Source: Paracoccaceae bacterium (GTDB lineage Bacteria; Pseudomonadota; Alphaproteobacteria; Rhodobacterales; Rhodobacteraceae). From it: DNA of 64,000 bases. The stretch spans positions 1 through 64,000 of the forward strand of contig JANSXY010000011.1 of the NCBI GenBank assembly GCA_024742695.1. The letters run 5' to 3'. The translations under genes and the position numbers were made by a program. The notes under the pieces are model-generated. The model did no database searches. It saw nothing but the letters and a program-made list of their open reading frames with translations, and had not been told where the DNA came from. Positions 16,931 to 39,698 of this stretch are shown here, one piece after another. How positions within the stretch are numbered: position 1 is the stretch's first letter; every line of letters starts with the position of its first letter.

Positions 16931-16933
16931 GTT

Positions 16934-23830: not shown

Positions 23831-25174
23831 CTAAGCCTTGCCCTTGATCAGCCGGCCGCGCAACCAGCCCGACACGGTATCCATCAGCATGACCATGACC
23901 ACGATCAGGACGATGTAATAGGTGACCTCTTCCCAGTCCTTCTGGGTGATGATCGCCTGGGTCAGCATCAGGCCGATGCCGCCGCCGACGATCGCGCCGA
24001 TCACGGTCGCGCTGCGGGTATTCGATTCGAGGAAGTACAGCACCTGGCTCAGCAGCACCGGCACAAGCTGCGGCAGAACGCCGAACCGGGCGCGCTGCAC
24101 CGAATTGGCGCCGGTCGATTTCAGCCCCTCCACCTGCTTCTCGTCGACATTCTCCAGGGCCTCGGAGAACAGCTTGCCGAACGAGCCCGAGTCGGTGATC
24201 AGGATCGCCAGCGACCCGGTCAGCGGGCCGGGGCCGAAGGCGCGGCTGAGGATGATCGTCCAGATCAGGCCGTCGACCCCGCGCACGAAGTCGAAGACAC
24301 GGCGGGTGGCGAAGCGCAACGACCGCACCGGGGTGAAGTTCGCCGCCGCCAGGAAGGCCAGCGGCAGGGCCACCAGCGCCGCACCCATGGTGCCGAGGAA
24401 GGCCATCAGGATCGTCTCGAAGATCGCCCAGACGACATCCTTATGCCGCCACATCGCGTTGTTCCAGAAATCGCCGACCATGGACGCGAAGTTCGACCGC
24501 GCGGGATCGATCCGCTCGCCCGACAGCGCAAGGCCCGCCAGTTCCCCGAACGACTTGCCATGGAACGGGCTGTCGAGGGTGAAGAAGAACAGTTCCCACC
24601 CGTAGGAATAGACAAAGGTTTCCGTCCGGTTGCGGGTCATCGACATCCGGCCCCGATCGGTCGTGATGGTGACGCGCGTGTTCGAGGCGTTGATCCAGTC
24701 GGGCACCGCCTGCCCGCCGGTATCGAGCGCGACGCGCCCGTCGACGAGGTCCAGCACGATGGGGCCGAAATCGGGGTGGTCATAGGTCGCCGCCGTGCCG
24801 GCATAGGCCACCCGGTGCCCCTCGCCCAGGTCGATCAGAACGCTCTCGCCGGTCTCGGTCACGAAGCCGGGGATCATGCCCTCGGGATAGGTGCCCTTGT
24901 TCTCGCCCTCGATGGCATAGGTGATCCGGCCGTCGCGGTTGTCGCGCGACACATGGGTCTTGTAGCTGACGAAGTCGGAAACGAGGATCACCGCGTTGTC
25001 GAGCTTGGCGCGCCCGGCAAGGCCCGGAATGTCGAAGGCGAAGAACACGTAGACCAGGTAGGCCAGCACGAGCGCGGGCAGCCCGAAGGCCATCATCCGC
25101 TTGCGGGCGAACAGCCGCCCCACCTCGGCGCGGGTGGCGGACAGCCCATCGGTGCCGGTATCGGTCGCGGTCAT
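23831..25174 (-). CDS. phnE: Phosphonate ABC transporter permease PhnE2, with periplasmic insertion
   Basis: This 447-residue permease of the phosphonate importer starts MTATDTGTDGLSATRAEV. One membrane helix (FGLPALVLAYLVYVFFAF) is followed by a soluble insert of roughly 180 residues before the next helices, far larger than in the 250-290-residue PhnE type. The C-terminal half is the normal permease domain (LPLAFLAAANFTPVRSLRF; GSFGKLFSEALENVDEKQVEGLKSTGA; IGAIVGGGIGLML). The ATG at 25174 nearly abuts the phnE1 stop; an earlier ATG at 25192 is possible. Confidence 0.9.
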   Translation of the reverse strand: MTATDTGTDGLSATRAEVGRLFARKRMMAFGLPALVLAYLVYVFFAFDIPGLAGRAKLDNAVILVSDFVSYKTHVSRDNRDGRITYAIEGENKGTYPEGMIPGFVTETGESVLIDLGEGHRVAYAGTAATYDHPDFGPIVLDLVDGRVALDTGGQAVPDWINASNTRVTITTDRGRMSMTRNRTETFVYSYGWELFFFTLDSPFHGKSFGELAGLALSGERIDPARSNFASMVGDFWNNAMWRHKDVVWAIFETILMAFLGTMGAALVALPLAFLAAANFTPVRSLRFATRRVFDFVRGVDGLIWTIILSRAFGPGPLTGSLAILITDSGSFGKLFSEALENVDEKQVEGLKSTGANSVQRARFGVLPQLVPVLLSQVLYFLESNTRSATVIGAIVGGGIGLMLTQAIITQKDWEEVTYYIVLIVVMVMLMDTVSGWLRGRLIKGKA

Positions 25175-25175
25175 C

Positions 25176-26045
25176 TCAGTGCCCCCGGACAAGACGGTTG
25201 CGGTAGTGGCTGGAAGTCTGATCGACGATCACGATCGTCGCGAACAGCAGAAGGAAGATCGCCACGACCTCGTCATAGCGGCCCGTGCCCCACTGCATCG
25301 CGATCTTCAGGTCATAGCCGATGCCGCCCGAACCGACGAAACCGAGGATCGCCGAGGCGCGGATGTTGATCTCGAATCGCATCAGCCCGTAGGACAGCCA
25401 GTTCGGCGCCACCTGCGGCAGAACGCCCAGGTACATCTGCTGGAACCAGGTGGCCCCGACCGAGCGCAGCCCCTCGACCGGCTTCAGATCGGCATTCTCG
25501 GCCACTTCGGAGAAAAGCTTGCCCAGCGCGCCGCCGGTGTGGAAGGCGATGGCGATCATCGCGGGCACCGGGCCGCCGCCCAGCAGGAAGATCAGGATCA
25601 GCGCGATGACGATTTCCGGGATCGCACGCATCCCGTCCATCATCCGGCGGAACACCGGGATCAGGCGCGGAAACCGTGCCAGCCCGCGGGTGGACAGCAG
25701 CGACACGACCATCGCCACCAGCGCGCCCAGGAGCGTGGACACCGCAGCGATGTTCAGCGTCTCGATCAGCGAGGGAACGAATTGCCAGAACAGTTCGGGC
25801 AGGTTCGCCCGCTTTTCCCAGGCCTCGGCCACGACTTCCGAAGGGAAGTCGAAGAACATGTGGATCCCGTCCCAGAAGCCGCCGGCATTGCGCGCGTCGG
25901 CCAGGCGAAAGCCCGAGGCCATCAGCACGATGAAGATGACGATCAGGATGCCGCCGTACATCCGCTTGCGGCGGGTCAGCACCATGTAGTGGTCGCGCGT
26001 GGCGTCCACGGGGCGGCTGGCCCCTGCGGCGGTCAGATCGGTCAT
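25176..26045 (-). CDS. phnE: Phosphonate ABC transporter permease PhnE1
   Basis: This 289-residue permease pairs with PhnE2 in the phosphonate importer. The N-terminal helix is GGILIVIFIVLMASGFRL. Permease marks are LGALVAMVVSLLSTRGLARFPRLI, the RAIPEIVIALILIFLLGGGP region, and ALGKLFSEVAENADLKPVEGLRSVGAT with IRASAILGFVGSGGIGYDLK. It sits 61 bp after phnD, with a hairpin between, and directly before phnE2. Confidence 0.93.
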   Translation of the reverse strand: MTDLTAAGASRPVDATRDHYMVLTRRKRMYGGILIVIFIVLMASGFRLADARNAGGFWDGIHMFFDFPSEVVAEAWEKRANLPELFWQFVPSLIETLNIAAVSTLLGALVAMVVSLLSTRGLARFPRLIPVFRRMMDGMRAIPEIVIALILIFLLGGGPVPAMIAIAFHTGGALGKLFSEVAENADLKPVEGLRSVGATWFQQMYLGVLPQVAPNWLSYGLMRFEINIRASAILGFVGSGGIGYDLKIAMQWGTGRYDEVVAIFLLLFATIVIVDQTSSHYRNRLVRGH

Positions 26046-26067
26046 GGGCGGCCCCGGGCGAGGAAAG

Positions 26068-26094
26068 GGCGGGCGGGGTCATCCCCCGCCCGCC
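26068..26094 (-). other. GC hairpin after phnD
   Basis: GGCGGGCGGGG and CCCCGCCCGCC form an 11-bp perfect stem with a 5-nt loop, 12 bp past the phnD stop and before phnE1. There is no T run. Such hairpins after binding-protein genes often protect mRNA so that more binding protein than permease is made. Confidence 0.5.
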
Positions 26095-26106
26095 GGAACG
26101 TCACGA

Positions 26107-27009
26107 TCAGTTCGACTGGGCCTTGCGGACCGCGATGATCGATTCGTAGGCGTCGTGGCCGATCGGCTTGAAGCCGGCCGTTTCACCCGCGGCGATGTTG
26201 TAGGCGCACTGCGGATCCTTCTCGTGCATGCCGGCGACGAGCGCGGTGATCGTGTCCTTCACGTCCTGCGGCAGGGCCTTGCGCAGCGTCACGGGGCCTT
26301 CCGGGATCGGCTTGGAGATCCAGATCTGCACGAGGTCGTTCATGTCGACGAGGCCCGAGTCGACCGCCTTGCGCAGCGCGCCCGAGTTGTAGCCGTCTTC
26401 CCAGTTGCCCAGGCCGTCGGCCCAGGTCACGCCGGCGTCGACATCGCCGTTGTTGACAGCGACGATGGTCTGCTCGTGGCCGCCGGTGAAGACGACTTCA
26501 CCGAAGTAGTCGCCGTTTTCCATGGTGGCGCCGGTCGCCATCGGGATCTCGATCGAGGGGATCAGGTAGCCCGAGGTCGAGTTCGGGTCGCCGAAGCCGA
26601 ACTTCTTGCCCTTCATGTCATCGAGCGAGGCGATGCCGGCATCCTTCCGCGCGAAGCCGATCGAGTGGTACGAGAACGACCCGTCGAGGTTGGTCTTGAC
26701 CAGCACCGGCTCGACCGCTTCGGGGTCGGTCAGGAAGGCCTTGGCATAGGCCGAGGCGCCCAGCCACGACATGTCGATCGAACCGCCGACCATGCCCTGG
26801 ATCACGCCGTCGTAGTCGGCCGGGGTGAACAGCTTGACCGGAACGCCCAGGGCCTCTTCGGCATAGGCGCGCAGGCACTCGTTCGAGGTCAGGCGGTCCT
26901 GGGCGTTCTCGCCGCCGAGGATGCCGATCCGGAATTCGGTGATGTCCTGGGCCATGGCCGGGACGGCCAGGGCGGTGGTGGCCACGAGGGCGGCAAGCAG
27001 CTTCTTCAT
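26107..27009 (-). CDS. phnD: Phosphonate ABC transporter periplasmic binding protein PhnD
   Basis: This 300-residue binding protein starts MKKLLAALVATTALAVPAMA with a signal peptide cut after AMA-Q. The mature part reads DITEFRIGILGGENAQDRL, then FTPADYDGVIQGMVGGSIDMSWLGASAY, DDMKGKKFGFGDPNSTSGYL and VVFTGGHEQTIVAVNNGDVDAG. These are typical of PhnD (PF12974). The ATG at 27009 gives the signal peptide; a longer frame upstream is spurious. It captures phosphonates for PhnC/E. Confidence 0.95.
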   Translation of the reverse strand: MKKLLAALVATTALAVPAMAQDITEFRIGILGGENAQDRLTSNECLRAYAEEALGVPVKLFTPADYDGVIQGMVGGSIDMSWLGASAYAKAFLTDPEAVEPVLVKTNLDGSFSYHSIGFARKDAGIASLDDMKGKKFGFGDPNSTSGYLIPSIEIPMATGATMENGDYFGEVVFTGGHEQTIVAVNNGDVDAGVTWADGLGNWEDGYNSGALRKAVDSGLVDMNDLVQIWISKPIPEGPVTLRKALPQDVKDTITALVAGMHEKDPQCAYNIAAGETAGFKPIGHDAYESIIAVRKAQSN

Positions 27010-27029
27010 CGTCTTCCTCTCTGGTTGCG

Positions 27030-27051
27030 CCCCCGCCGGACGCGGCGGGGG
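27030..27051 (-). other. GC hairpin between phnC and phnD
   Basis: CCCCCGCCG and CGGCGGGGG pair over 9 bp, 14 bp past the phnC stop. There is no T run on the minus strand. It is possibly a processing or stability element between ATPase and binding-protein genes. Confidence 0.45.
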
Positions 27052-27065
27052 TGGTGAGACTTGGG

Positions 27066-27896
27066 TCAGGCTCGGATGACCTCGACTTCCTCCAGCATCG
27101 CCCGCGCGGCCGGGTCGAGCGCCGGCAGCGCGGTGGAGGTCGAGGATTCGGAAAAGGTTTCGTCGGCGCCGTAGATGTCGCGCGCGACGCCGGTCGTCAG
27201 CTGCTCGGGCGTGCCGTCGAAGACGATCCGGCCCGCGCGCATGCCGATCACCCGGTCGCAGTAGCGCCGCGCGGTGTCGAGCGTGTGCAGGTTCGCGATC
27301 ACGGTGCGCCGGTCTTCCTCGTGGATCCGGCGCAGGCTGTCCATCACCACCTGCGCGTTCATCGGATCGAGGCTGGCGATCGGCTCGTCGGCGAGGATGA
27401 CCTTCGGATCCTGCATCAGCGCCCGTGCGATGGCGACGCGCTGCTGCTGGCCGCCCGACAGCGCCTCGGCCCGCTTGGCCGCCTGTTCGGCGATGCCAAG
27501 CCGGTCGAGAATGTCGATGGCGCGGTGAATGTCGGCCTGGCCCCACAGGTTGAACATCGTCGCGAGGGTGGAGCGCTTGTTCAGAAGCCCGTGCAGCACG
27601 TTCGAGACGACATCCATCCGCGGCACCAAGTTGAACTGCTGGAAGATCATCGCGCAGTCGCCCTGCCAGGCGCGTTTCTCCGCGCCCTTGAGCGCCAGCA
27701 CGTCGCGCCCCTCGACCACAAGCCGGCCAGAGGTGGCATCGGTCAGGCGGTTCATCATCCGCAGGAAGGTGGACTTGCCCGCGCCGGACCGGCCGATGAT
27801 GCCCACGAAGGCCGGGCGGTCCACGGCGAAGGTCGCCGAGTCCACGGCCACGTTCTGCCCGAAGACCTTCGTCACGCCGTCAACCTGGATCAGCAT
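27066..27896 (-). CDS. phnC: Phosphonate ABC transporter ATPase PhnC
   Basis: This 276-residue ABC ATPase has Walker [18 protein letters not shown] (about 36), Q-loop [16 protein letters not shown], signature [15 protein letters not shown], Walker [17 protein letters not shown], and the switch His in [19 protein letters not shown]. The pattern matches PhnC. It is the first gene of phnC-D-E1-E2-acetyltransferase. A PhoB-box-like site lies 66 bp upstream. Confidence 0.94.
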
Positions 27897-27998: not shown

Positions 27999-29132
27999 CT
28001 ATTCACCCGCCGCCCGGACGATCCGCGGCAGCGGCGCGAGGCTGTCGGCCACCAGGTTCACCGCACGGCCCTCGGTGGCGGAGAGCTGCGCCGCCTGGCC
28101 CATCGCGACGGCCCACCAGCCATCGTCCACCGTCACCTCGACGGGGCCGAGCGCGCGCGCGGCGCGGGCGAAGCGGTCATGCTGGAAGAATGTCGATCCG
28201 TTGTGATCGCCCGCGGCCAGAAGGATCGGATCGACCGGGATCTCGATCCGCCGCGGGCCCTTCGGCGCGCGCGGCGAATGCACGACCTCGGCCACCGGCG
28301 CGGGGCCGAGATCGGCGGGCCAGAACCGGCCGGGGCCGGGCACGAAGGCTTCGATCTTGCCCGCCGGGCCGATGGCGGCAATCTCTTCCTGGTAACGCGC
28401 GCCTTCGGCGAACATGCACAGTTCCAGCATCGCCCGCGCGCCCGAGGCGAAATCGACGATCACGTAGCCGTGGTCCCAGATATCCGGCACCTCGTCGCCG
28501 TAGCGTTCGTCGAGATGGTTCACCGCCTGCCCCGCCGTGGCCATGACGCGCACCGGGTCGGAGCGCAGGATGAGCCGCATCAGGTCGAAGAAATGGCAGC
28601 ATTTCTCGACAAGGGTGCCGCCGGAATTGCGGTTGAAGCGGTTCCAGTCGCCGACCTTGGGCAGGAACGGAAACCGGTGTTCGCGGATCGACAGCATCCG
28701 CACGCCGCCGGTCACCGCCTCGGCCTCGGCGATCAGGCGGGCGACGGGCGGCATGTAGCGGTATTCCATCGCCACCCAGACCGGCGCGGGATAGCGGTCG
28801 CGGAACGCGGCGACGCGGGGCGCGGCGGCGGGATCGGTGAACAGCGGCTTTTCCACCAGAACCGGCAGCGCCCGGCCGGTGGCGGCCACCGCCTCGAGCT
28901 GGTCGAGGTGGTGGTGGTTGGGCGAGGCGATCAGCACCGCGTCGATCTCCGGCCGGGCCAGCAGCGCGGGCAGATCGTCGACCAGCGCCGCGCCGGGTGC
29001 AAGGCCGGCCGCCGCCCGCCGCATGCCGGCGTCCGGCTCCCAGATCGCCGCCACCGAGGCGCCGGGCACCAGCGCGATGTTGCGCAGATGCTCCTGTCCC
29101 ATCATGCCGCAGCCGATGATTCCCCAACGCAT
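27999..29132 (-). CDS. Gfo/Idh/MocA-family oxidoreductase
   Basis: This 377-residue NAD(P)-dependent oxidoreductase has an N-terminal Rossmann motif (RWGIIGCGMMGQEHLRN), the family VLVEKPLFTDP motif with the Lys, and NSGGTLVEKCCHFFDLMRL with the usual catalytic His region. The fold acts on sugars, inositols and sugar derivatives. The ATG at 29132 has GGGAG upstream. It is downstream of the GntR gene on the same strand and so probably belongs to the same cluster as the monooxygenase genes. The substrate is unknown; a sugar or sulfo-sugar is possible. Confidence 0.85.
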   Translation of the reverse strand: MRWGIIGCGMMGQEHLRNIALVPGASVAAIWEPDAGMRRAAAGLAPGAALVDDLPALLARPEIDAVLIASPNHHHLDQLEAVAATGRALPVLVEKPLFTDPAAAPRVAAFRDRYPAPVWVAMEYRYMPPVARLIAEAEAVTGGVRMLSIREHRFPFLPKVGDWNRFNRNSGGTLVEKCCHFFDLMRLILRSDPVRVMATAGQAVNHLDERYGDEVPDIWDHGYVIVDFASGARAMLELCMFAEGARYQEEIAAIGPAGKIEAFVPGPGRFWPADLGPAPVAEVVHSPRAPKGPRRIEIPVDPILLAAGDHNGSTFFQHDRFARAARALGPVEVTVDDGWWAVAMGQAAQLSATEGRAVNLVADSLAPLPRIVRAAGE

Positions 29133-29197
29133 TCCGTTTGCTCCCTGCCCCGTCATTCCGACCCCGTCATTCCGACCCCCTCACTCGCGTCCCGAAC

Positions 29198-29899
29198 TCA
29201 CTTGATCCGCGCCACGTAGCGCACCACGTCGGCGTCGAACCAGGCGCGCGAGACCTCGGCCCGCGCCCCGTCGCGCGCCAGGCTGACCCGTTCGACCAGC
29301 CCGGCAGGCGCCCCGGCGGGCTTGCCGAAGGGGGCCGGCGCCCAGTCCGGCACGATGCCGATGCCGACACGATCCTCCGCCGCGGTGATCCACAGGCCCA
29401 GGCGCTGGCGGTAGAACAGATACAGCGAGGGCGTGAGGTCCGCGGGTGCGATCCGGTCGGCATAGCCGCCGTCGAGCCAGATCTCTTCCACCGCCGCGGG
29501 CTGGCCGCCGACGCGGCGCAGCCGGCGGATCCGGTGGCCTTCCGCCGCCGTGCCGAAGGCGGGCCAGCCGGCGGGCTTCGCCAGACGGTCGACCGAGATC
29601 ACCTCGGCCGTCGGCAGCCCGCCGCCCTGCAACAGTTCCAGCCGGAACAGCGCGTAGACCGAGGGCACGTCGGCCCGCGCCCGGACGTAGTTGCCCGAGC
29701 CCTGCACCCGTTCCACCAGCCCCTTGGCCGTCAGATCGGCCAGCGCCTTCCTCAGCGTGCCCACGGCCACGCCCAGCTCCGCCGCCATCTCGCGTTCGGG
29801 CGGCAGCCGCGCGCCGTCCGGCAGGCGGCCCGAGGCGATCTCGCGGATCAGCATCTCCGCGAGGTCCAGGTAAAGCGGCAAGGCGCCCGGTTTCGGCAT
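29198..29899 (-). CDS. GntR/HutC-family transcriptional regulator with UTRA domain
   Basis: This 233-residue regulator starts MPKPGALPLYLDLAEMLIRE. The winged helix is GRLPDGARLPPEREMAAELG followed by VAVGTLRKALADLTAKGLVER. The C-terminal UTRA ligand domain includes VEEIWLDGGYADRI and FYRQRLGLWITAAEDRVGI. It is divergent from the flavin monooxygenase operon, so it likely senses a metabolite of that pathway and represses both sides. The ATG at 29899 was chosen because the longer frame adds a sequence unlike the family. Confidence 0.85.
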   Translation of the reverse strand: MPKPGALPLYLDLAEMLIREIASGRLPDGARLPPEREMAAELGVAVGTLRKALADLTAKGLVERVQGSGNYVRARADVPSVYALFRLELLQGGGLPTAEVISVDRLAKPAGWPAFGTAAEGHRIRRLRRVGGQPAAVEEIWLDGGYADRIAPADLTPSLYLFYRQRLGLWITAAEDRVGIGIVPDWAPAPFGKPAGAPAGLVERVSLARDGARAEVSRAWFDADVVRYVARIK

Positions 29900-29929
29900 C
29901 GCACCCCGGCTGCGACAATTGATACACGA

Positions 29930-29943
29930 TTGATCTACATCAA
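29930..29943. promoter_or_regulatory. Exact FNR/FnrL consensus between the GntR gene and the monooxygenase operon
   Basis: TTGAT-CTAC-ATCAA matches the FNR half-site consensus at all ten specified positions. It lies 40 bp before the monooxygenase ATG at 29983 and 31 bp before the GntR ATG. Two ATTGAT repeats overlap it. It suggests oxygen-linked regulation of an apparently oxygen-dependent enzyme. Confidence 0.6.
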
Positions 29944-29982
29944 GGCGGGTGCTACGCAAGCACAAATTTCGTGGAGGAATCG

Positions 29983-31137
29983 ATGACGATCGTGCCCATC
30001 ACCTCGCCCGATCTCGACGCCTGCGAGGTGTCGTGGTTCGCCGCGCTGTGTTCCGACGACTACCGCTATCTCGGCGTGCCGGACGGCAGCCTGCGATCGT
30101 CCTGGGCGCATTGTTCCGAGATCGTGAAGACCGCCGAAGAGCTGGGTTTTCGCAACATCCTGTGCCCGTCGTCCTACCAGGTCGGGCAGGACACGCTGTC
30201 CTTCGTCGCCGGCTGCGCGCCGATCACCGACCGGATCAACCTGCTGGCCGCCGTCCGCTGCGGCGAGATGCAGCCGATCATGCTGGCGCGCACGATCGCC
30301 ACGCTCGACCACATGCTGGAAGGCCGGCTGACGGTGAACATCATCTCGTCGGACTTTCCCGGCGAACAGGCGGAGTCGCGTTATCGCTACCAGCGCTCGC
30401 GCGAGGTCGTGCAGATCCTCAAGCAGGCCTGGACGCGGGAGGTGATCGACCACGAGGGCGAGGTCTATTCGTTCCGGGGCCTGACCACCGATCCGGCGAA
30501 ACCCTACCAGACCGGCGGGCCGCTGCTGTATTTCGGCGGCTATTCGCCCGACGCGCTGGAGCTTTGCGGCGAACACTGCGACGTCTACCTGATGTGGCCC
30601 GAGACGAAGGAGATGCTGGCCGAAAGGATGCGCGCGGTGCACGAACGCGCCGCCGCGCATGGCCGGACGCTGGATTACGGGCTGCGGGTGCACATGATCG
30701 TGCGCGACACCGAGGCCGAGGCGCGGGACTACGCGCGCGAGCTTGTCTCGCGGCTCGACGACGGCGCGGGGGCGGCGATCCGCGACCGCGCGCTCGACGC
30801 GACATCGCTGGGCGTGGCCCATCAGGCGGCCAACCGTTCCCTTGCCGACGACGCGGGCTATATCGAACGGCACCTGTGGACCGGCGTGGGCCGCGCCCGG
30901 TCGGGCTGCGGGGCCGCGCTGGTGGGATCGACGGACCAGGTGATGAGCGAGATCGAGGCATATCGGAAGATGGGTATCCGGGCGTTCATTTTTTCCGGCT
31001 ATCCCCATCTGGAGGAAGCGCGGCATTTCGGAACCCGCGTTCTGCCGGGGCTGAAGACCTGCTCGCTGCCGCAGGAATACGGGCGGGTGCCGGCCGGCAT
31101 GCCGGCCACGCCGCTGGGAACGGGAGAGAGGCGTTGA
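29983..31137 (+). CDS. SsuD-type FMNH2-dependent (luciferase-like) monooxygenase, probable sulfonate desulfonase
   Basis: This 384-residue member of the bacterial luciferase-like superfamily aligns with alkanesulfonate monooxygenase SsuD along its length. Shared stretches are [20 protein letters not shown] (SsuD Arg226/His228 region), [19 protein letters not shown] (Arg297 region) and [14 protein letters not shown] (Tyr331 region), with [16 protein letters not shown] in the barrel. The Cys of SsuD position 54 is not conserved; a Cys occurs in NILCPSS instead. Such enzymes use FMNH2 and O2 to release sulfite. The ATG at 29983 follows GGAGG. It overlaps the next gene by one base. Confidence 0.88.
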
Positions 31138-32030
31138 TGGAACGGGTACACCTGGGCGCGGGGCTGAGCTTCAGCCGGATCGTCTACGGGCTGTGGCGGC
31201 TGGGCGACGCGGCCGATACCTCGGCCGATGCCGTGCGCGCCAAGATCGACGCCTGCCTTTCGCAGGGCATCACCACCTTCGACGAGGCCGACATCTATGG
31301 CGATTACGAAAGCGAGGCGCTGTTCGGCGCCGCGCTGAAGGCCGACCCGGCGCTGCGCGACCGGATCGAGATCGTCACGAAATGCGACATCATGCTGACC
31401 TCGGCCAAGTACCCGGCCCGGCGGGTGAAGCATTACGACACCTCGGCGGCGCATATCCGCGCCTCGGTCGAGGCCTCGTTGCAACGCATGGGCATCGACC
31501 GGATCGACATGCTGCTGTTGCATCGCCCCGATCCGCTGATGGACCCGGCCGAAACCGGCGCGGCGCTGGACGCGCTGGTGGCCGAGGGCAAGGTGCGCGG
31601 CGTCGGCGTGTCGAACTTCCGGCCATGGGACATAACCCTGCTGCAAGCGGCGATGGCGGAAAGGCTGGCGGTGAACCAGATCGAGCTGAGCCTGGTCGCC
31701 CCCGAGGCGCTGGTGAACGGCGACATGGCCTTCCACATGGAGCACGGGGTGGCGACGATGGCCTGGTCGCCGCTGGGCGGCGGCGCGCTCTTTGCCACCG
31801 CGCGGGAGCCGCTGCGCGCCGCGCTGGAGCGGATCGCCGAGGCGCAGGGCACCGAACCGGCGGCGGTCGCGGTGGCCTGGCTGTTGCGGCATCCCGCGGG
31901 CATCCTGCCGGTGATGGGCACCAACGACCTGTCGCGCATCGCCCGGCTGGGCGAGGCCACGACGGTCGAGATCGACCGCGAGACCTGGTTCGAGCTTTAC
32001 GAGGCCGCGCGCGGCCACGAGGTGGCATGA
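31137..32030 (+). CDS. Aldo/keto reductase (YdhF-like)
   Basis: This 297-residue aldo/keto reductase has the catalytic tetrad visible as Asp and Tyr in [13 protein letters not shown], Lys in IVTKCD, and His in [23 protein letters not shown] and [14 protein letters not shown] (NADPH site) are also present. It is coupled to the monooxygenase gene (TGATG) and to the flavin reductase gene (ATGA). In a desulfonation pathway it could reduce the aldehyde left after sulfite release, as the Smo pathway does with 6-dehydroglucose; this assignment is inference. Confidence 0.88.
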
Positions 32031-32536
32031 CCGCGCCCGGCCCGCAGATCCTGGACCCGGCCACCGGCGACGCGCGCGCGTTCCGCGCGGCGCTGGGGCG
32101 CTATGCCACCGGGGTGACGGTGGTGACCGCGCAGGGCCCGGACGGCCCGCTGGGGATGACCGCGAACAGCTTCACCTCGCTGTCGCTCGACCCGCCGCTG
32201 GTGCTGTGGTGCCCGGCCACCGGATCGGCGCGCTATCCCGCCTTCGCGGCGGCAGAGCACTACGCGATCCACGTGCTCGCCGCCGACCAGATCGACCTGT
32301 GCCGCCGGTTCGCGCGCGACGGTCGCGATTTCTCGGGGACCGGGGCCGAGGAAACGCCCGAGGGCGTGCCGGCCCTGCCCGGTTGCCTCGCCCGGTTCGA
32401 CTGCGTGGCCGAGGCCCGCCATCCCGGCGGCGATCACGCGATCCTCGTGGGCCGGGTGCTGCGGGCGGTGACCGGGCCGGGCGATCCGCTGCTGTTCTGG
32501 GGCGGGCGCTACGGCGACTTCATGCACCACGGCTGA
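32027..32536 (+). CDS. NAD(P)H:FMN reductase, partner of the monooxygenase
   Basis: This 169-residue flavin reductase-like protein has the split-barrel marks [18 protein letters not shown], the [19 protein letters not shown] segment, [18 protein letters not shown], and [11 protein letters not shown]. It ends with the GGRYGDF motif common in FMN reductases that feed two-component monooxygenases. It is the third gene of the plus-strand operon and presumably supplies FMNH2 to the SsuD-type enzyme. Confidence 0.88.
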
Positions 32537-32548: not shown

Positions 32549-33148
32549 TCACCACACGTCCGGGTCGATCCCCTTCGCCTCCAGCTCGGCGAACTTGTCC
32601 TGCAGGTAGCGCTGGAACGGCTGGCGGGCGTGTTCGCCGGTCGCCACGTATTCCAGCGACGACAGGTAATGGAACGGCTTCAGGTAGCCCGGCATCCGGA
32701 AGGTTTCGGCCGCGCGCGGGTCGCTCGCGCCGGCGTTAGCCTTGTCGAACAGGATCGTCGTCGGGGTGAAGTTCACGAACCACTTGGCGGCCAGCGCCCG
32801 TTCTTCCAGCGCCTCGCCGTCGAAGTCGGTCACCTCGCGCGCGCCCCAAAGATCGAGCTGCACGACGAGGAAATGCGCCGCGATGTAGTCCGAGATCTCC
32901 GGCCGGGCGAAGTTGACACGGTGCAGTTCGCGGCAATAGGGGCAGCCGGCCTGTTCATAGAGCACCATGAGGTGCCGGCCCGAGGCCGCGGCCTCGGCCA
33001 GATCCTCGCCCAGATCGAGGAACCCCTCGTGAAACCACGGCTGCTTGTGCAGCCCGTCGGCGGCCGGCGTCGGTTCGGCCCGCGCCGGGGCGGCCAGCGC
33101 CGCCATCCCGGCCGGCAGCGCGGCCAGCAGCTTGCGTCTGTCGATCAT
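32549..33148 (-). CDS. SoxW-like periplasmic thioredoxin, second copy
   Basis: This 199-residue exported thioredoxin-fold protein starts MIDRRKLLAALPAGMAALAA (signal peptide cut near ARA-E). The active site CPYC lies in YEQAGCPYCRELHRVNF, and the cis-Pro region is FVNFTPTTILFD. It is clearly related to the SoxW encoded at 42070-42630 (shared HEG/KPEW-type start, VVQLDLWG versus VVQMNLFG, and VTDFDGE). It lies after the soxF terminator with its own GGAGG. It probably maintains the reductant state of Sox carrier proteins or cytochromes. Confidence 0.85.
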   Translation of the reverse strand: MIDRRKLLAALPAGMAALAAPARAEPTPAADGLHKQPWFHEGFLDLGEDLAEAAASGRHLMVLYEQAGCPYCRELHRVNFARPEISDYIAAHFLVVQLDLWGAREVTDFDGEALEERALAAKWFVNFTPTTILFDKANAGASDPRAAETFRMPGYLKPFHYLSSLEYVATGEHARQPFQRYLQDKFAELEAKGIDPDVW

Positions 33149-33203
33149 CGCGCATCCTCCCTGCGGACAGGATAGCACGCGCCGCGGCGCGGCCGGAGTC
33201 ACG

Positions 33204-33230
33204 AAAACGGGCGCGGGAGGCCCCGCGCCC
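33204..33230 (-). terminator. Terminator after soxF
   Basis: On the minus strand GGGCGCGG and CCGCGCCC pair over 8 bp and are followed by GTTTTCGTGAC. It lies 23 bp past the soxF stop and before the SoxW-like gene, so the main sox transcript probably ends here. Confidence 0.6.
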
Positions 33231-33253
33231 GTCCGGTTCCGCGCCGTTGCGGA

Positions 33254-34519
33254 TCAGCCGAAGATGTCGGCGGTGATCCCGGCGTACCAGCCCAGCGATT
33301 CCTCGAAAGTCACCTTGCGCAGCGCGGCATCCTCGCCGGTCTGGCTGATGAAGCTGGAGACCGAGGCGATCTTTTCCTCGGTCGGCTCGTAAGAGGCGCC
33401 GACCTTGATGCCGTCCTCGGTGTCGATCAGAGACCAGCAGGTGTTCGAGTATTTCGCCGGGAACACCCGCGAGCCGGTCAGGGCGCCGCGGATATGCATC
33501 GCGGCCACCTTGGCCTGGCTGTTGGCCGAGAAGCCCGACTTCGGCATGTCGCCCTGCGCCGAGGCGTCGCCCAGCACGTAGACGTTCTCGTCGGCCTTGG
33601 TGGCCATCGAGAACGGATCGACCGGCGCCCAGTCGCCCTCGGTCACGCCGGCGACATGGGCGATCCGGCCGGCCTGCTGGCCGGGGATCACGTTGCAGAC
33701 ATCGACCTTCTCGACGGTGCCGTCGATCTCGACCTCCATCGTGTCGGGCCGGACCGAGACATTGGCGCCGCCGAAATCCGGGCCGATGCGTTCGATCATG
33801 CCGGAATAGTGCTTCTGCCAGCCTTCCTCGAACAGCGCCTGCTTGGAGAATTTCTCCTTCGGGTCGACAAGCAGGATCTTGGCCGTCGGGTTCCGCTCGC
33901 GCAGGACATGGGCGACCATGCTGATCCGCTCGTAGGGACCGGGCGGGCAGCGGTAGGGGTTGGGCGGTGCGACCATGCAGAAGACGCCGCCCTCCGGCAT
34001 CGCCTCGATCTGGGCCTTGAGCAGCTGGGTCTGCGGCCCGGCCTTGTAGGCATGCGGCATGATCTCGGCCGCCGCCAGATCCCAGCCCGGCACCGCGCCG
34101 TCGCGGAAGTCGATCCCCGGCGCGATCACCAGCCGGTCGTAGGACAGCACCTCGCCGCTGGCCAGCGTGACGGTCTTGGCGTCACGGTCGACGCCCTCGG
34201 CGGTGGTCTGGGCCAGCGTGATGCCATACTCGCCGGTCAGCTTGTCGTAGCTGTGCGCGAGGCTTTCGAAGGTCCGGAACCCGCCGATGTAGAGGTTGGA
34301 GAAATAGCAGGTGTAGTAGGTCGCGTTCGGTTCCACCAGCGTCACGTCGATGGCGCCGTCGCTGTCCTTGGCGATGTAGCGCGCGCAGGTCGCGCCGCCG
34401 GTGCCGCCGCCGATCACGACGACGCGGGGCTTGGCCTGGCCGATCACGGCCGGGGCGGCCAGCGTGGCCGCGGTGAAGGCGGCCGCGCCGCCCAGGAATG
34501 TCCGTCTGTTATGTGCCAC
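33254..34519 (-). CDS. soxF: SoxF, flavoprotein of flavocytochrome c sulfide dehydrogenase
   Basis: This 421-residue FAD protein is exported by Tat (NRRTFLGGAAAFTAATLAAP near the N-terminus). The dinucleotide motif is VVIGGGTGGATCARYI. Redox cysteines are in YYTCYFSNLYIGG and NTCWSLIDTEDG, as in FccB. C-terminal FCSD domain marks follow (GASYEPTEEKIASV). The GTG start at 34519 has GGGAGGG upstream and gives the Tat signal. With SoxE it oxidises sulfide and passes electrons to cytochrome c. Confidence 0.93.
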   Translation of the reverse strand: MAHNRRTFLGGAAAFTAATLAAPAVIGQAKPRVVVIGGGTGGATCARYIAKDSDGAIDVTLVEPNATYYTCYFSNLYIGGFRTFESLAHSYDKLTGEYGITLAQTTAEGVDRDAKTVTLASGEVLSYDRLVIAPGIDFRDGAVPGWDLAAAEIMPHAYKAGPQTQLLKAQIEAMPEGGVFCMVAPPNPYRCPPGPYERISMVAHVLRERNPTAKILLVDPKEKFSKQALFEEGWQKHYSGMIERIGPDFGGANVSVRPDTMEVEIDGTVEKVDVCNVIPGQQAGRIAHVAGVTEGDWAPVDPFSMATKADENVYVLGDASAQGDMPKSGFSANSQAKVAAMHIRGALTGSRVFPAKYSNTCWSLIDTEDGIKVGASYEPTEEKIASVSSFISQTGEDAALRKVTFEESLGWYAGITADIFG

Positions 34520-34548
34520 TTGTACTCCCTCCCTTGAGTTACTCTCGG

Positions 34549-35259
34549 TCACTGGGGTTCCAGCGTCGCGTAATAGGCCGCGAGCGCCGCAATCTCTTCG
34601 TCGGTCAGGCGCCCGGCCATCATCTGCATCACCGGATGCGGGCGCAGTTTCTGCTTGTAGGCATGCATCGCGACCACGAAATCCTCCTCGGGCCAGGCCA
34701 CGATCGAGGGGATGCCCTGGTCGGATCCGTCGCCCTGGTGGCAGGTGCCGCATTCCGAGGCGAGGTATTCGCCGAAATCCGGGTCGCCCTGCAGCGCCAG
34801 CACCTCGTCCGCCAGCTGCGGCTGGCTGGTGACGATACTGGGCTCGGCCTCGGGGATGTCGCGCGGCTTGTCGGAGAACTCGCGGATGAAGGCGATCAGG
34901 TCGGCCCGGTCCTGCGGATCCTTCAGCCCGCGATAGGCCATCCGGGTGCCGGACACCAGCGCCTTGGGATTGTCGATATAGGCATCGAGCGTCTCGAACG
35001 TCCAGGTCAGCCCGTCCGACCCCATCCGCGCCATGCTCTTGGAATACTTGAAGCCCTCGACCGCGCCGGCGCGACGGCCGAAGATGCCGTTCAGCGGCGG
35101 CCCGATCCGGTTGCGCGCCTCGGGGCCGATCATGTGGCAGCCCTTGCACTGGTTCCAGAATCCCTCGCCGCGGTCGGCGTCGCCGGCCAGCTGCGCGAAG
35201 GCCGGCGCGGCAAGGCTCGCCAGCAGTGTCATGGTAGCAATAAACCGCGCCTGGCGCAT
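34549..35259 (-). CDS. soxE: SoxE, diheme cytochrome c partner of SoxF
   Basis: This 236-residue exported protein starts MRQARFIATMTLLASLAAPAFA. It carries two c-type heme motifs: CKGCH near residue 38 in a class I cytochrome domain (MIGPEARNRIGPPLNGIFG), and CGTCH near 170 in the second domain. It is the electron-accepting subunit of the SoxEF sulfide dehydrogenase. It starts 185 bp after soxD, with a strong hairpin in between, so its level may be set separately. Confidence 0.92.
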   Translation of the reverse strand: MRQARFIATMTLLASLAAPAFAQLAGDADRGEGFWNQCKGCHMIGPEARNRIGPPLNGIFGRRAGAVEGFKYSKSMARMGSDGLTWTFETLDAYIDNPKALVSGTRMAYRGLKDPQDRADLIAFIREFSDKPRDIPEAEPSIVTSQPQLADEVLALQGDPDFGEYLASECGTCHQGDGSDQGIPSIVAWPEEDFVVAMHAYKQKLRPHPVMQMMAGRLTDEEIAALAAYYATLEPQ

Positions 35260-35404
35260 TGCGCCCGTCCTCCCTCACTCGTCCGGTACCAGCGTATGGG
35301 GACGGCCGCTTCCGGCATATGTCCCCAAAAGGATAGGCAGGTCCACCGGAGTATTCGTGCCCTCACCACTCCCGAACGGCCCTCCCAGCCGATCGGGGCG
35401 ATGC

Positions 35405-35436
35405 CTGCCGGGGGCGGTTCACGCCGCCCCCGGCAG
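35405..35436 (-). other. GC hairpin just after soxD
   Basis: CTGCCGGGGGCGG and CCGCCCCCGGCAG form a 13-bp perfect stem 8 bp beyond the soxD stop. No T run follows. It may be a partial terminator or a 3' processing/stability element separating soxABCD from soxEF. Confidence 0.55.
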
Positions 35437-35444
35437 ATCGTCGA

Positions 35445-36536
35445 TCACATCGCGCCCGCGGTCGCGATATAGGCGATCACCGCGTCGATCTCTTCCTGCT
35501 TCTTGAGACCGGCGAAGGACATCTTGTTGCGCGGGATGTAGCCGCGCGGATCGGCCAGGTAGGCCCCCAGCGTCTCGTCGGTCCAGACCAGGCCGTTCTC
35601 GCCGGCCTCCAGCATCGCCTTGGAATAGCGGAAGCCCTCGATCGAGCCGGCCGTGTGGCCGATCACGCCGTTCAGGTGCGGCCCGGTGCCGTTCTTCGCG
35701 CCTTCGCCGATCTTGTGGCAGGCCTTGCACTTGTTGAACACCCGCTCGCCCGCGGCGACCAGTTCGGGATCGTAGGCCGCGGCCATCTCCGCCGCCGGTT
35801 CCTCGGCCGCGGCGGGTTCGGCCTCGGCGGTCTCGGTCGCCTCAACCTCGGCCGCCTCGGCCGAGGCCATGATCGGCGGCAGGGTGCCGGCGGGCTTGCC
35901 GTCGGGATCCTCGGGGGTGACGTTGAGGGTGACCGCGCGCTTGGTGATCTCCACGGGCTCGCGGCAATCGCTCATGCAGGGCGCGGCAGAGAACCGGGGA
36001 TACTCGGTCTCGGCCCGGTCGTCGACGATGAAGCCCCCGGCATTGGGCAGCACGACCTCGGTGAAGTTCTCGTGGCTGAGAACGAAGTCGTCATCCACCA
36101 GCCCGTTCGAATAGAGGATGTAGGCCACGATCGCGTAGGTATCGTCGGCGCTGATCGTCTGCGCGGCGCCGAACGGCATCGAGCGGTGGACATAGTCCCA
36201 CACCGTCGAGACATAGGGCCAGTAGGAGCCCACGGTCTTGACCGGCCGGCGATCCTGCAGGCTGCCGAGACCGCCGGCGAGCGGCGGCCAGCTGTCGATC
36301 CCCTCGGCGAAATCGCCGTGGCAGGCCGCGCAGGCCTCGGCAAAGACCTCGTCGCCGGTCCAGACGTCGCCGGAGCCTTCCGGCAGGCCGGTGCCGTCGG
36401 GCAGCACCGCGACGTCCCACGCCGCGATTTCCTCGGGCAGCGCCTCGCGGCCAAGGCCGAAGCCCTCGGCCTGCGCCGCGCCCGCGGTGACGGCCAGCAG
36501 GGCCGCGCCGGTCAGGACATTAGCCAACTTCGACAT
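35445..36536 (-). CDS. soxD: SoxD, diheme cytochrome c subunit of sulfane dehydrogenase SoxCD
   Basis: This 363-residue exported cytochrome starts MSKLANVLTGAALLAVTAG. The N-terminal domain has CAACH (about residue 69). An extra Cys pair lies in PCMSDCREP. A 35-residue Ala/Glu-rich linker leads to a C-terminal cytochrome domain with CKACH and KIGEGAKNGTGPHLNGVIG. It accepts electrons from the Mo centre of SoxC. The ATG overlaps the soxC end by 17 bp. Confidence 0.94.
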   Translation of the reverse strand: MSKLANVLTGAALLAVTAGAAQAEGFGLGREALPEEIAAWDVAVLPDGTGLPEGSGDVWTGDEVFAEACAACHGDFAEGIDSWPPLAGGLGSLQDRRPVKTVGSYWPYVSTVWDYVHRSMPFGAAQTISADDTYAIVAYILYSNGLVDDDFVLSHENFTEVVLPNAGGFIVDDRAETEYPRFSAAPCMSDCREPVEITKRAVTLNVTPEDPDGKPAGTLPPIMASAEAAEVEATETAEAEPAAAEEPAAEMAAAYDPELVAAGERVFNKCKACHKIGEGAKNGTGPHLNGVIGHTAGSIEGFRYSKAMLEAGENGLVWTDETLGAYLADPRGYIPRNKMSFAGLKKQEEIDAVIAYIATAGAM

Positions 36537-37791
36537 TCTCGACCTCCCCATCCTCACGGACCCACCAGGTCTGGATGCCGTTGTTGTGGTAGACATTGTT
36601 CAGCCCGCGGATCTCGCGCAGCTCGTCCTTGGTGGGCTGCACGTAGCCGGTCTCGTCGATCGCGCGGGACTGCAGGATCATCTCCGACCCGTCCCAGTCG
36701 ATGTCGAGATGGAAGCGGGTCAGCGCCTTGGACTTGACGTCGCCGGTCAGCCGCGCCTCCTGCCAGTTCACGCCACCGTCGAGCGAGACGTCGACGCGGG
36801 CGATCTTGCCGTGGCCGGACCAGGCGAGGCCGGTGATCACCAGCGGGCCCTTGCCATGCCGGATCGGCGCCTGCGGCGAGGGCGACGTGATGACGGACTT
36901 CGCATCCATCACCCAGGTCCACTTGCGGGCGGTGCCGTCGGCCATCAGGTCGGTGTATTTCGAGGTCTCCTCGCGGCTTTCGACCGCGGCGTGGTAGACG
37001 CCGACGCGGCGCAGCCACTTGACCCACATGTTGCCTTCCCAGCCGGGCACGACAAGGCGGACAGGATAGCCATGCTCCTTACGCAGCGCCTCGCCGTTGG
37101 CGTAGAAGGCCACGAGCACGTCGTCCATCGCCTTTTCCATCGGGATCGAGCGACCGTTCGACGAGGCATCGGCGCCCTCGACATAGATCCAGGTGCCCTC
37201 GGGCTGCACGCCGGCCTCTTCGAGTAGCAGACGCAGCGGGACGCCGATGTATTCCATATTGTGGATCATGCCCTGGGTGAACTGGCAGCCTTCCAGCTGC
37301 GCGCCGCCCCATTCCATGCCGCCGTTCGCCGCGCATTCGCAGAACGCGGTGGTCGAGGCGCGCGGAAACCGCATCAGATCCTCGTAGGTGAAGACCAGCG
37401 GCTTGTCGACGAGGCCGTTGATCATCAGCCGGTAGTCGGCCTTCGACAGTTCGATCGCGCCCGAATGATGCCGTTCGAAGGCGCAGCCCTGCGGGGTGAT
37501 CGTGCCTTCCAGCGCGTGGATCGGGGTGAAGTTGATCGACGAGACCGGGCTTTCGGTCAGCCATTCGACGTTGCGGCGCACGACATGGCTTTCGAACCGG
37601 ATCGGCATGCCGTAGGGCGTGGCATCCACGGGGTCGCCGAAGCTCGACGCCCAGTCCTGAACTTCGGTGATCAACGGGTCGGGCCCGGCCGCACGGGCCG
37701 CCGTGGCCGCGCCGACGACGGCGCCTCCGGCGGCGGCGGCGGTGCCGAGGAAGCCCCGGCGCGTGGTGCCCTTGTGGGTGTCATCCGACAT
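36520..37791 (-). CDS. soxC: SoxC, molybdenum subunit of sulfane dehydrogenase
   Basis: This 423-residue sulfite-oxidase-fold protein has a Tat signal (TTRRGFLGTAAAAGGAVVG). The Mo-ligating Cys lies in TAFCECAANGG (Cys153). The dimerisation domain follows (GKIARVDVSLDGGVNWQEA). SoxC with SoxD oxidises the sulfane sulfur carried on SoxY, allowing full oxidation of thiosulfate to sulfate without stored sulfur globules. The ATG at 37791 has AGGA about 6 bp upstream. Confidence 0.95.
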   Translation of the reverse strand: MSDDTHKGTTRRGFLGTAAAAGGAVVGAATAARAAGPDPLITEVQDWASSFGDPVDATPYGMPIRFESHVVRRNVEWLTESPVSSINFTPIHALEGTITPQGCAFERHHSGAIELSKADYRLMINGLVDKPLVFTYEDLMRFPRASTTAFCECAANGGMEWGGAQLEGCQFTQGMIHNMEYIGVPLRLLLEEAGVQPEGTWIYVEGADASSNGRSIPMEKAMDDVLVAFYANGEALRKEHGYPVRLVVPGWEGNMWVKWLRRVGVYHAAVESREETSKYTDLMADGTARKWTWVMDAKSVITSPSPQAPIRHGKGPLVITGLAWSGHGKIARVDVSLDGGVNWQEARLTGDVKSKALTRFHLDIDWDGSEMILQSRAIDETGYVQPTKDELREIRGLNNVYHNNGIQTWWVREDGEVENVEVG

Positions 37792-37844
37792 GACAGTCCT
37801 CCTTGGGTTGGTCGGCTCCGCCGGGGCGGAACCGGGCGATGGAT

Positions 37845-37866
37845 GCCGGGGCGTCACCGCCCCGGC
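37845..37866 (-). other. GC hairpin directly after soxB
   Basis: GCCGGGGCG and CGCCCCGGC pair over 9 bp with a TCAC/GTGA loop, 4 bp past the soxB stop. No T run follows. It is one of several similar hairpins at sox gene ends. Confidence 0.5.
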
Positions 37867-37870
37867 GGGG

Positions 37871-39562
37871 TCAGATCCCGGTCACGGTGACCGAGGTGTT
37901 GGGTTCAAGCTTGACGGTGCCGATCTTGCGGATGTGGGATTCGATGACTTCCCAGATCTGCGGCCCCTCGGTGCCCTCGTTGACGCTGGCCCAGCCGCCG
38001 ACCGTGTAGGTCTTGGCCGGATCGAGCGTCTCGCCGGTGGCCACGAGGCTCATGTCGGTGATCCGCTCGCCGATCGGCTTCGAGACGTCGCAGGAGAACG
38101 CCAGCCCGCCGATCCGCACCATGTCGCCGCCCTGCTGGTAGTAGGGATCGGGGTTGAAGATGTTGTCGGCCACGTCCTCGAGGATCGTGTGGATGAACTC
38201 GCCGGTCATCTCGGTGCGGTAGCAGGCGCCGTAGGTCATCGTGCAGACGTTGTGGATGTCCTCGCGGGTGATCGCGTCGCCCGGCAGCATCGAGGCCCCC
38301 CAGCGCACGCCCGGCGACATCGCGATCTGCACGTCGCGTTCCTCGATGATCGCCTGGCAGATCAGGTCGTCCCAGGTGCCCTGGAAGTTGCCGCGGCGGT
38401 ACAGCAGGCTTTCCGTGGTGCCGATCACCTCTTCGAGCTGATCCTTGTAGGGCGCGCGCTCGGCCTCGATCAGGCTGGCCATCTCGGCATCCGGCGCGAT
38501 CACGTCGGCGAAAACCGGGATCAGCTTGTGGCGGAAGCCCATCATCCGGCCGTCGCGCACATCGAGATCGACGCGGCTGACGAACTTGCCGTGGCTGCCC
38601 GACGCGATCAGGATCGTTTCGCCCACCAGCACCGGTTCGGGCAGCGCGTCATGGGTGTGGCCGGTGAGGATCACGTCGATGCCGGTCACCCGGCTGGCCA
38701 TCTTGCGATCCACGTCGAAGCCGTTGTGCGACAGGCAGACCACCAGGTCGACACCCTCGGCGCGGACCTCGTCGACGACTTCCTGCATCCGCTCCTCGCG
38801 GATGCCGAAGGAGTATTCGGGGAACATCCAGCCCGGATTGGCGATCGGCATGTAGGGGAACGCCTGGCCGATCACCGCCACCCGCAACCCGTTCTGGTCG
38901 AAGATCTGGTAGGGTTCGAAGGCCGGTTCGTCCCATTCGCTGTCGAAGATGTTCGCCCCGAGGAACGGGAACGGCAGGTTTTCGACGATTTCCAGCACGC
39001 GTTCGGTGCCGAAGGTCCATTCCCAGTGCGAGGTCATCGCGTCGACCCCGAGCTTGTTCATCACGTTGACCATGTCCTGGCCCTTCGTGAGGAACGAGGT
39101 CATCGACCCGTGCCAGGTATCGCCGCCGTCGAGCAGCAGCGAGTTCGGCCGTTCGGCGCGGATCGACTTGACGATCGTGGCGACACGATCCATGCCGCCC
39201 ATCCGGCCGTAGGTGCGACCCAGCGCGGCGAAATCCTCGTAGGTCAGCGCATAGGCCTCGGGGCTGCCCGGCGCGATGTCGAACATCTTGAGGAAGTCGC
39301 TGCCGACCACATGCGGCGGCTTGCCCTTCACCTCGCCGACGCCGATGTTCCATTCCGGCTCGCGGAACCAGATCGGCTTGAGCTGGGCGTGGATGTCGGT
39401 GACGTGGATCAGCGTGAAGTTCCCGAACCCGTCGAATTGCAGAAGCTGGTCCTGGGTCAGCGCCTGCTGCGCGGCCAGCCGCGCCCAGTTGCCGACGCCC
39501 GAGGCCCCGACGATCGCCGAGGCCGCCACCGAGGCTTGCAGGAATTCACGCCGCGAGATCAT
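37871..39562 (-). CDS. soxB: SoxB, sulfate thiohydrolase
   Basis: This 563-residue protein of the 5'-nucleotidase-like metallophosphatase fold starts MISRREFLQASVAASAIVG (Tat signal). Dinuclear Mn ligands are in HVTDIHAQLKP, GGDTWHGS, LSHNGFDVDRK and LTGHTHDALPEP; SHWEWTFG is the SoxB form of the usual NHE motif. The C-terminal domain holds TYGACYRTEMTGEFIH. It hydrolyses the sulfate group off SoxY-bound thiosulfonate. The ATG at 39562 follows AAGGAGA. Confidence 0.96.
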   Translation of the reverse strand: MISRREFLQASVAASAIVGASGVGNWARLAAQQALTQDQLLQFDGFGNFTLIHVTDIHAQLKPIWFREPEWNIGVGEVKGKPPHVVGSDFLKMFDIAPGSPEAYALTYEDFAALGRTYGRMGGMDRVATIVKSIRAERPNSLLLDGGDTWHGSMTSFLTKGQDMVNVMNKLGVDAMTSHWEWTFGTERVLEIVENLPFPFLGANIFDSEWDEPAFEPYQIFDQNGLRVAVIGQAFPYMPIANPGWMFPEYSFGIREERMQEVVDEVRAEGVDLVVCLSHNGFDVDRKMASRVTGIDVILTGHTHDALPEPVLVGETILIASGSHGKFVSRVDLDVRDGRMMGFRHKLIPVFADVIAPDAEMASLIEAERAPYKDQLEEVIGTTESLLYRRGNFQGTWDDLICQAIIEERDVQIAMSPGVRWGASMLPGDAITREDIHNVCTMTYGACYRTEMTGEFIHTILEDVADNIFNPDPYYQQGGDMVRIGGLAFSCDVSKPIGERITDMSLVATGETLDPAKTYTVGGWASVNEGTEGPQIWEVIESHIRKIGTVKLEPNTSVTVTGI

Positions 39563-39661
39563 CCGCGTCTCCTTGTCCTTGCGCATGCGGGGGCCGGGCA
39601 CACGGAAAGACTTCCGCGCGGCAGGCCGCCCGAGTTCGGTTTCGAAATTATCCTAGCATGT

Positions 39662-39688: not shown

Positions 39689-39698
39689 GATCATCAAG

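Follow-up and report, generated by a model that had tools for sequence, protein, structure and literature searches.

Predicted sulfoquinovose sulfolysis cassette with a GH188 glycosidase on a Paracoccaceae contig

The smo cluster of Agrobacterium tumefaciens contains a GH31 sulfoquinovosidase and the ATP-binding cassette (ABC) sugar transporter SmoE-H. Its description is reportedly due to Sharma et al. 2022. The cluster is also covered in a review (PMC9594981). In marine bacteria of the Roseobacter clade, earlier reported to be without GH31, GH188 genes are near-universal in clusters of the sulfoquinovose monooxygenase (sulfo-SMO) type, and GH188 enzymes act on both alpha and beta glycosides of sulfoquinovose (SQ), according to Kaur et al. 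2023 (PMC10755693). Here, we analyze a stretch of 64,000 nucleotides (the window; contig JANSXY010000011.1, positions 1 to 64,000) from a Paracoccaceae bacterium (assembly GCA_024742695.1, the source genome) and describe a cluster of five genes that is very probably a sulfo-SMO-type cassette for SQ sulfolysis in which the glycosidase belongs to GH188. Such a cassette, with which marine and soil bacteria remove sulfite from SQ, the sugar of a plant sulfolipid, is already described and is common in Alphaproteobacteria, and the cluster has the published form apart from the missing linked transporter.

Gene content and enzyme assignment

All five genes are present with uninterrupted reading frames: a plus-strand trio (smoC, smoB, and smoA), a divergent GntR/UTRA gene, and a Gfo/Idh/MocA gene, here named sqgA. 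The corresponding Pfam domains are Bac_luciferase, Aldo_ket_red, Flavin_Reduct, GntR plus UTRA, and GFO_IDH_MocA. The original prediction, made from the sequence alone, described an oxidative desulfonation set resembling SmoC, SmoB, and SmoA, which is borne out by the PDB scores of SmoC and SmoB and by the SmoC tree. It also had the trio coupled by overlaps of 1 bp (smoC/smoB, at 31137) and 4 bp (smoB/smoA, 32027-32030) and accompanied by a regulator and a Gfo/Idh/MocA gene; the coordinates agree (Table 1), and both accompanying genes carry these domains and are divergent. The most likely start of smoC is 29983 (MTIVPITSP...) rather than 29971. The GntR gene probably starts at 29899, since the longer frame overruns a conserved motif at 29918-29938.

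The monooxygenase is classified as SmoC type, distinct from SsuD. A phmmer comparison with the PDB ranks 7OH2 (718 bits) and 7OLF (709 bits) ahead of SsuD/MsuD structures (about 206); pairwise identity is 80.2% to 7OH2, 78.3% to 7OLF, and 36.2% to E. coli SsuD. The PDB names of 7OH2 and 7OLF are generic, and we take these entries to be SmoC from Agrobacterium and from Rhizobium. Our trees took in 21 of the 80 SmoC relatives described below; a first tree of 36 rows was rebuilt with 34 after removing two ill-fitting rows (L111_Sphing_b and L113_Spiro). In the 34-row tree, SsuD and MsuD are set apart by a 100/100 branch from all 32 remaining rows; SmoC of the window stands among 27 SmoC rows that include 7OH2 and 7OLF (group support, 81/88), adjoined by a second group of 52-55% identity. 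Aligned at what we presume to be the SsuD catalytic positions, the window SmoC retains W, R, H, R, and Y, whereas Val takes the place of SsuD Cys54 in 27/27 SmoC rows, the window included. No second SmoC match was found in the source genome at an E value of 0.001. An initial reading of this gene as an SsuD-type monooxygenase thus gives way to SmoC, on identity (80% to 7OH2 versus 36% to SsuD) and on the 100/100 branch, and a phylogeny against SsuD and SmoC, set beforehand as a check with grouping among non-sulfonate luciferase-like enzymes as the refuting outcome, does not refute the desulfonation reading.

Separately, a SmoC relative of 52% identity on a Spirosoma oryzicola plasmid (L113) lies beside SusC/SusD, amidohydrolase, amino acid permease, and cytochrome c genes. 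This locus also holds a soxC-named sulfite dehydrogenase, an aldo/keto reductase annotation is absent from the stretch, and another sulfonate pathway is possible there.

SmoB scores 396 bits to 7BBZ/7BBY, which have generic PDB names and which we take to be SmoB; the next best structure scores 219. In PMC13372026, sulfo-SMO is recognized by SmoB and SmoC being encoded inside a 10-gene window, and here smoB and smoC are adjacent. The third gene is predicted to encode the flavin reductase partner of SmoC, with a Flavin_Reduct domain (PF01613), an NCBIfam FerA score of 264 bits that is just over the cut-off of 260, and a PDB match to 4XHY of 208 bits.

The Gfo/Idh/MocA gene is predicted to be the glycosidase itself, a GH188 NAD+-dependent sulfoquinovosidase. 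Its product scores 541 bits to 8ZN9, 378 to 8QC3, and 376 to 8QC2, with the next structure at 62, and Kaur et al. 2023 (PMC10755693) give 8QC2 and 8QC3 as GH188 NAD+-dependent sulfoquinovosidases (SqgA). The window SqgA is 50% identical to ArSqgA and keeps 8 of the 9 active-site residues checked, namely, Lys107, Tyr136, Arg166, Leu170, Lys172, Glu189, His193, and His321 (window K103, Y132, R161, L165, K167, E184, H188, and H318). Of these, Arg166, Leu170, and Lys172 bind the sulfonate and the other five are substrate binding or catalytic, again following PMC10755693; the shares of GH188 sequences with R166, L170, and K172 are given as 98.3, 96.0, and 96.7% (PMC11465081). The source genome holds no second GH188 match at an E value of 1e-30, and a GH31 Pfam search of it gave no match, the same search being positive in 6/14 controls. 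An inositol-type dehydrogenase was rejected as the identity of this gene (TIGR04380, 105 versus a cut-off of 355, against 376-541 for the GH188 structures). The original prediction saw a dehydrogenase in place of a glycosidase; the structure scores and the conserved residues point to a GH188 sulfoquinovosidase instead, which would explain the "dehydrogenase" standing where a glycosidase was expected. With this gene read as GH188, the cluster is therefore no variant in respect of the glycosidase, and in place of the suggested variant sulfo-sugar or other sulfonate pathway we find the Roseobacter sulfo-SMO gene set, GH188 included, as published in PMC10755693.

Gene identities by homology, arrangement, motif, and residue conservation are observed here, and for catalytic activities and regulatory logic, which we infer from homologues, the following scheme is proposed. 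SqgA would hydrolyze SQ glycosides, e.g., sulfoquinovosyl glycerol, to SQ, with transient NAD+-dependent oxidation at C3. SmoA would make reduced flavin mononucleotide (FMNH2), with which, together with O2, SmoC would cleave the C-S bond of SQ to give sulfite and 6-dehydroglucose, and SmoB would reduce the latter, the glucose formed entering ordinary sugar metabolism. The GntR/UTRA protein is a probable repressor of both divergent units, acting via the motif at 29917-29943, and would be released by SQ or a product.

Table 1. Positions in the window of the cassette, its operator-like motif, and the adjoining clusters
Feature	Position	Strand	Basis
smoC, FMNH2-dependent sulfoquinovose monooxygenase (predicted)	29983..31137	+	PDB scores, identity, tree
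smoB, aldo/keto reductase (6-dehydroglucose reductase, predicted)	31137..32030	+	PDB 7BBZ/7BBY, 396 bits; overlap with smoC
smoA, flavin reductase, FMNH2 supply (predicted)	32027..32536	+	PF01613; FerA; 4XHY; overlap with smoB
GntR/UTRA regulator, probable repressor of divergent units	29198..29899	-	Pfam GntR + UTRA; listed open reading frame extends to 29965
sqgA, GH188 NAD+-dependent sulfoquinovosidase (predicted), Gfo/Idh/MocA fold	27999..29156	-	8ZN9/8QC3/8QC2 scores; active-site residues
Operator-like motif AATTGATACACGATTGATCTACATCAA	29917..29943		Between gntR and smoC; conserved in relatives
phnC-phnD-phnE-phnE, phosphonate ABC importer (neighbor, outside cassette)	23831..27896	-	NCBIfam equivalogs
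sox cluster (neighbor, outside cassette)	32549..41907	-	SoxC/SoxA/SoxX equivalogs + Pfam domains

Conservation of the cassette and its intergenic motif

The relatives are the best 80 of 562 confirmed loci, and some of the 80 end at contig boundaries. Among these 80, tblastn finds GntR in 80, SqgA in 79, SmoA in 74, and SmoB in 69, and gene strands relative to smoC are identical in all relatives wherever the genes are found. SmoC is also present in 10/36 other genomes of the same family (75-83% identity), with SmoB linked in 9 of the 10 neighborhoods and SqgA likewise in 9, the tenth contig being short. The gene arrangement is not due to chance. Searches of the fetched flanks for PhnD and SoxF, which adjoin the cassette in the window, gave 0/80 relatives (E value, 1e-10) and 0/10 same-family cassettes (1e-20), and the thioredoxin-like gene of the sox side was found in the flanks of 0/80 relatives; the sox and phn neighbors are no part of the conserved unit.

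Within the same family, L121 (genome G002) has smoC and smoA with smoB not linked, and in L123 (genome G036) about 5 kb separates smoC-smoB from sqgA-gntR-smoA, the motif sites there having 4 and 7 mismatches. In addition, 11/80 relatives (L002-L009, L053, L069, and L074) have smoC and smoA and no SmoB match in the fetched locus; the cassettes lie at about 11100-20700 of each full-length locus, and L003 and L005 come from a single strain. A genome-wide search covered 9 of these 11: 8/8 Mesorhizobium genomes have no SmoB match at an E value of 1e-40 (two controls, 64 and 67%), and the Aminobacter genome (L074) has a SmoB match of 51% elsewhere. A Mesorhizobium SQ cluster is named in the Figure 5 legend of Kaur et al. 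2023 (PMC10755693). The SmoB-less Mesorhizobium cassettes pose the question of what else takes 6-dehydroglucose.

A motif within 4 mismatches of ATTGATACACTATTGATCTAC occurs in the last 130 bases upstream of smoC in the window and in 74/79 relatives, and about 200 bases upstream of smoC in the other five (L022, L052, L071, L073, and L075). L053, not counted in the 79 since its start was unrecognized, also has the motif, which is thus present in 80/80 relatives. At up to 6 mismatches, the 27-base consensus has a single site in 71/80 loci and none in 9, and the reversed consensus has 0 matches anywhere; at up to 3 mismatches, the 21-base core has one site in the source genome and the reversed pattern none. 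Twelve columns of the motif alignment are invariant at 2 bits and the columns before the motif are mostly below 0.6 bits, the relatives not being independent, and a second conserved block, TGCTACGCAAG, follows. The motif at 29917-29943 is a probable GntR operator, and this strongly conserved gntR-smoC element offers a point for test. On the smoC side it is overlapped by a promoter-like element seen by eye, TTGATC-17-TACGCA, a putative smoC promoter. The GntR/UTRA protein is below the cut-off of every NCBIfam family listed (n=25). A terminator scan gave one terminator-like site, inside smoC, fewer than in shuffles.

Transport and alternative readings

One tripartite ATP-independent periplasmic (TRAP) family, families being defined by clustering at 35% identity across 60% of the length, is in the locus of 55/80 relatives; of the other 25, an ABC binding-protein family is in 15 and neither in 10, among which L062 is truncated by its contig boundary and L073 still has the small TRAP subunit. 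Of the 10 same-family cassettes, 6 have linked TRAP genes, 2 have an ABC binding protein, and 2 have neither, and on annotated plasmids of Rhizobium, Paracoccus, and Roseicitreum, TRAP genes come directly after smoA. Three binding proteins, two of ABC and one of TRAP type, were compared with the PDB by phmmer, and no SQ-named chain was among the matches listed. Among the titles and abstract openings listed for SQ, none describes a TRAP importer or a GntR operator for SQ. For the window, the set was originally said to come with other genes instead of an ABC transporter; the phnCDEE ABC genes do adjoin it, but score as a phosphonate importer. How SQ enters cells whose cassette is without TRAP genes is a small testable question.

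Several observations weigh against SQ sulfolysis as the function of the cluster. A linked SQ importer, usual in sulfo-SMO clusters though not defining by the published criterion, was not found here. No TRAP match occurs on the window's contig, and a search of the source genome for a matching transporter turned up nothing close to the usual TRAP genes, the best matches elsewhere being 31% (binding protein) and 42-43% (permease). The exact position of the window SmoC within the SmoC rows is not settled by the 34-row tree, and the first, 36-row tree put SsuD within the SmoC rows, on long branches. SmoC also misses the cut-offs of the 23 NCBIfam families listed, the best being TIGR03565 with 244 bits versus 518. 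In SqgA, the published Glu163 position (Tyr226 of GH109) is Val in our numbering of ArSqgA and Arg in the window; the adjoining Glu, ArSqgA Glu164 in our numbering, is kept as window E159. Finally, a consensus promoter scan of the region gave no sigma-70-like site and reported neither TTGATC-17-TACGCA nor the motif.

Two other readings of the enzymes were considered. A general alkanesulfonate/methanesulfonate monooxygenase system, SsuD/MsuD-like and serving sulfur scavenging, would draw on enzymes of this superfamily; the matches to TIGR03565 and to SsuD structures are far stronger than expected by chance, and 7OH2 and 7OLF are named "Alkanesulfonate monooxygenase" and "Methanesulfonate sulfonatase" in the PDB. 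We nevertheless consider it extremely improbable and have rejected it on PDB scores, on identity, and on the tree separation, and the sugar enzymes linked to the monooxygenase, of SmoB type and GH188 SqgA, also speak against it, as do the genes scanned on either side, which are phn and sox, not ssu. A variant pathway in which the same enzymes handle another sulfosugar, e.g., sulfofucose or a beta-linked SQ conjugate, is highly improbable as well. It would fit the cleavage of both alpha and beta SQ glycosides by GH188 (PMC10755693), and SQ as the substrate here is predicted from homology, with no importer found; however, the ArSqgA residues that bind the sulfonate and hydroxyl groups of SQ are kept, and SmoC is 78-80% identical to solved SmoC-type enzymes.

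With SQ sulfolysis as the preferred reading, a compatible proposal that concerns the importer only is that the neighboring PhnCDEE was recruited to import SQ or sulfoquinovosyl glycerol. Its genes are on the same strand as sqgA across a gap of 102 bp with no terminator-like site reported there, and the source genome is without close homologues of the usual TRAP importer. Still, such recruitment is very unlikely: PhnC, PhnD, and both PhnE proteins pass phosphonate equivalog cut-offs and sit with carbon-phosphorus (C-P) lyase genes, PhnD is in the flanks of 0/80 relatives, and phnC has no operator-like motif upstream, the only site in the genome (up to 3 mismatches) being the one between gntR and smoC. 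The wider idea that a dedicated SQ importer was lost and that the cassette is fed by an importer class not previously tied to SQ, most boldly PhnCDEE, seems unlikely; if PhnCDEE did feed the cassette, phosphonate and sulfosugar uptake would go through one door. With the 21-base core present at a single site of the source genome (allowing up to 3 mismatches), no importer encoded elsewhere can be seen to share the regulon. An ABC transporter on contig C65 of the source genome is a possible SQ importer that we do not favor. Its binding protein has 74% identity to a binding protein of L001. The transporter genes lie, however, with a GH88-like gene (our reading) and an 832 aa gene without Pfam domains, and the binding protein encoded directly after smoA in L078 shares just 40% identity with the C65 one.

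Two further observations touch on transport genes. The best-matching TRAP genes of the source genome (C65, 14462-17228) each have one TGA inside the matched stretch and may be a decayed system, or the TGA may be an artefact of match ends. In the 11 SmoB-less loci and L001, the smo genes are followed by a cluster encoding LacI, a KduI-like protein, a Pfam-less 840 aa protein, and a sugar ABC transporter (in L002 at about 11600-21158, with counterparts in the others); in 9/11 the cluster also includes a GH88 gene. The C65 region at about 204700-212900 (L104), with its GH88-like gene, 832 aa gene, and ABC genes of the same family, is unlinked to the cassette, and a link of these genes to SQ use is conceivable.

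Neighboring genes and comparison with described systems

The phnC-D-E-E genes start 102 bp from sqgA and are followed by C-P lyase genes. Not only PhnC, PhnD, and both PhnE proteins but also PhnH, PhnK, and PhnM, further on, are above their NCBIfam equivalog cut-offs. Within the C-P lyase set, just downstream of the PhnK gene, a CorA-like gene stands at window positions 15971-16930; it scores 131 bits, which is below its cut-off of 200.75. On the other side, the last gene of the opposite-strand sox cluster ends 12 bp from smoA, in line with the original placement of the cassette directly beside sox. SoxX, SoxA, and SoxC are above equivalog cut-offs, SoxC via the "sulfite dehydrogenase" equivalog, and the remaining sox names are our reading of Pfam domains (thioredoxin-like, flavocytochrome c, cytochrome c, and 5'-nucleotidase-like). 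The cassette was also said to lie near soe genes. Genes with domains of a molybdopterin/4Fe-4S/DmsC complex do exist at 53219-57846, but about 21 kb off, and the name "soe" is unconfirmed because no SoeABC-named model was among the matches to them. It is possible that the sox or "soe" genes oxidize sulfite from SQ; the sox neighborhood is not common to the relatives examined (0/80 and 0/10).

Like the A. tumefaciens smo cluster, the cassette encodes a SmoC that is 80% identical to 7OH2 and a SmoB similar to 7BBZ, given the chain assignments we presume; unlike that cluster, it has GH188 in place of GH31 and no linked ABC sugar transporter like SmoE-H. With the SsuD/SsuE system it shares a flavin-dependent sulfonate monooxygenase in which the W, R, H, R, and Y positions are kept, and it differs in the identity of 36%, the 100/100 branch, the changed Cys54 position, and the linked sugar enzymes. 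Compared with the TRAP-bearing relatives (55/80), the window cassette is without a linked transporter, and its phn and sox neighbors were found beside the cassette in none of the 80. Like the Roseobacter sulfo-SMO clusters of Kaur et al. 2023 (PMC10755693), it brings SmoC, SmoB, and SmoA together with a GH188 SqgA; the source genome likewise has no GH31, and a divergent GntR gene is present in 80/80 relatives.

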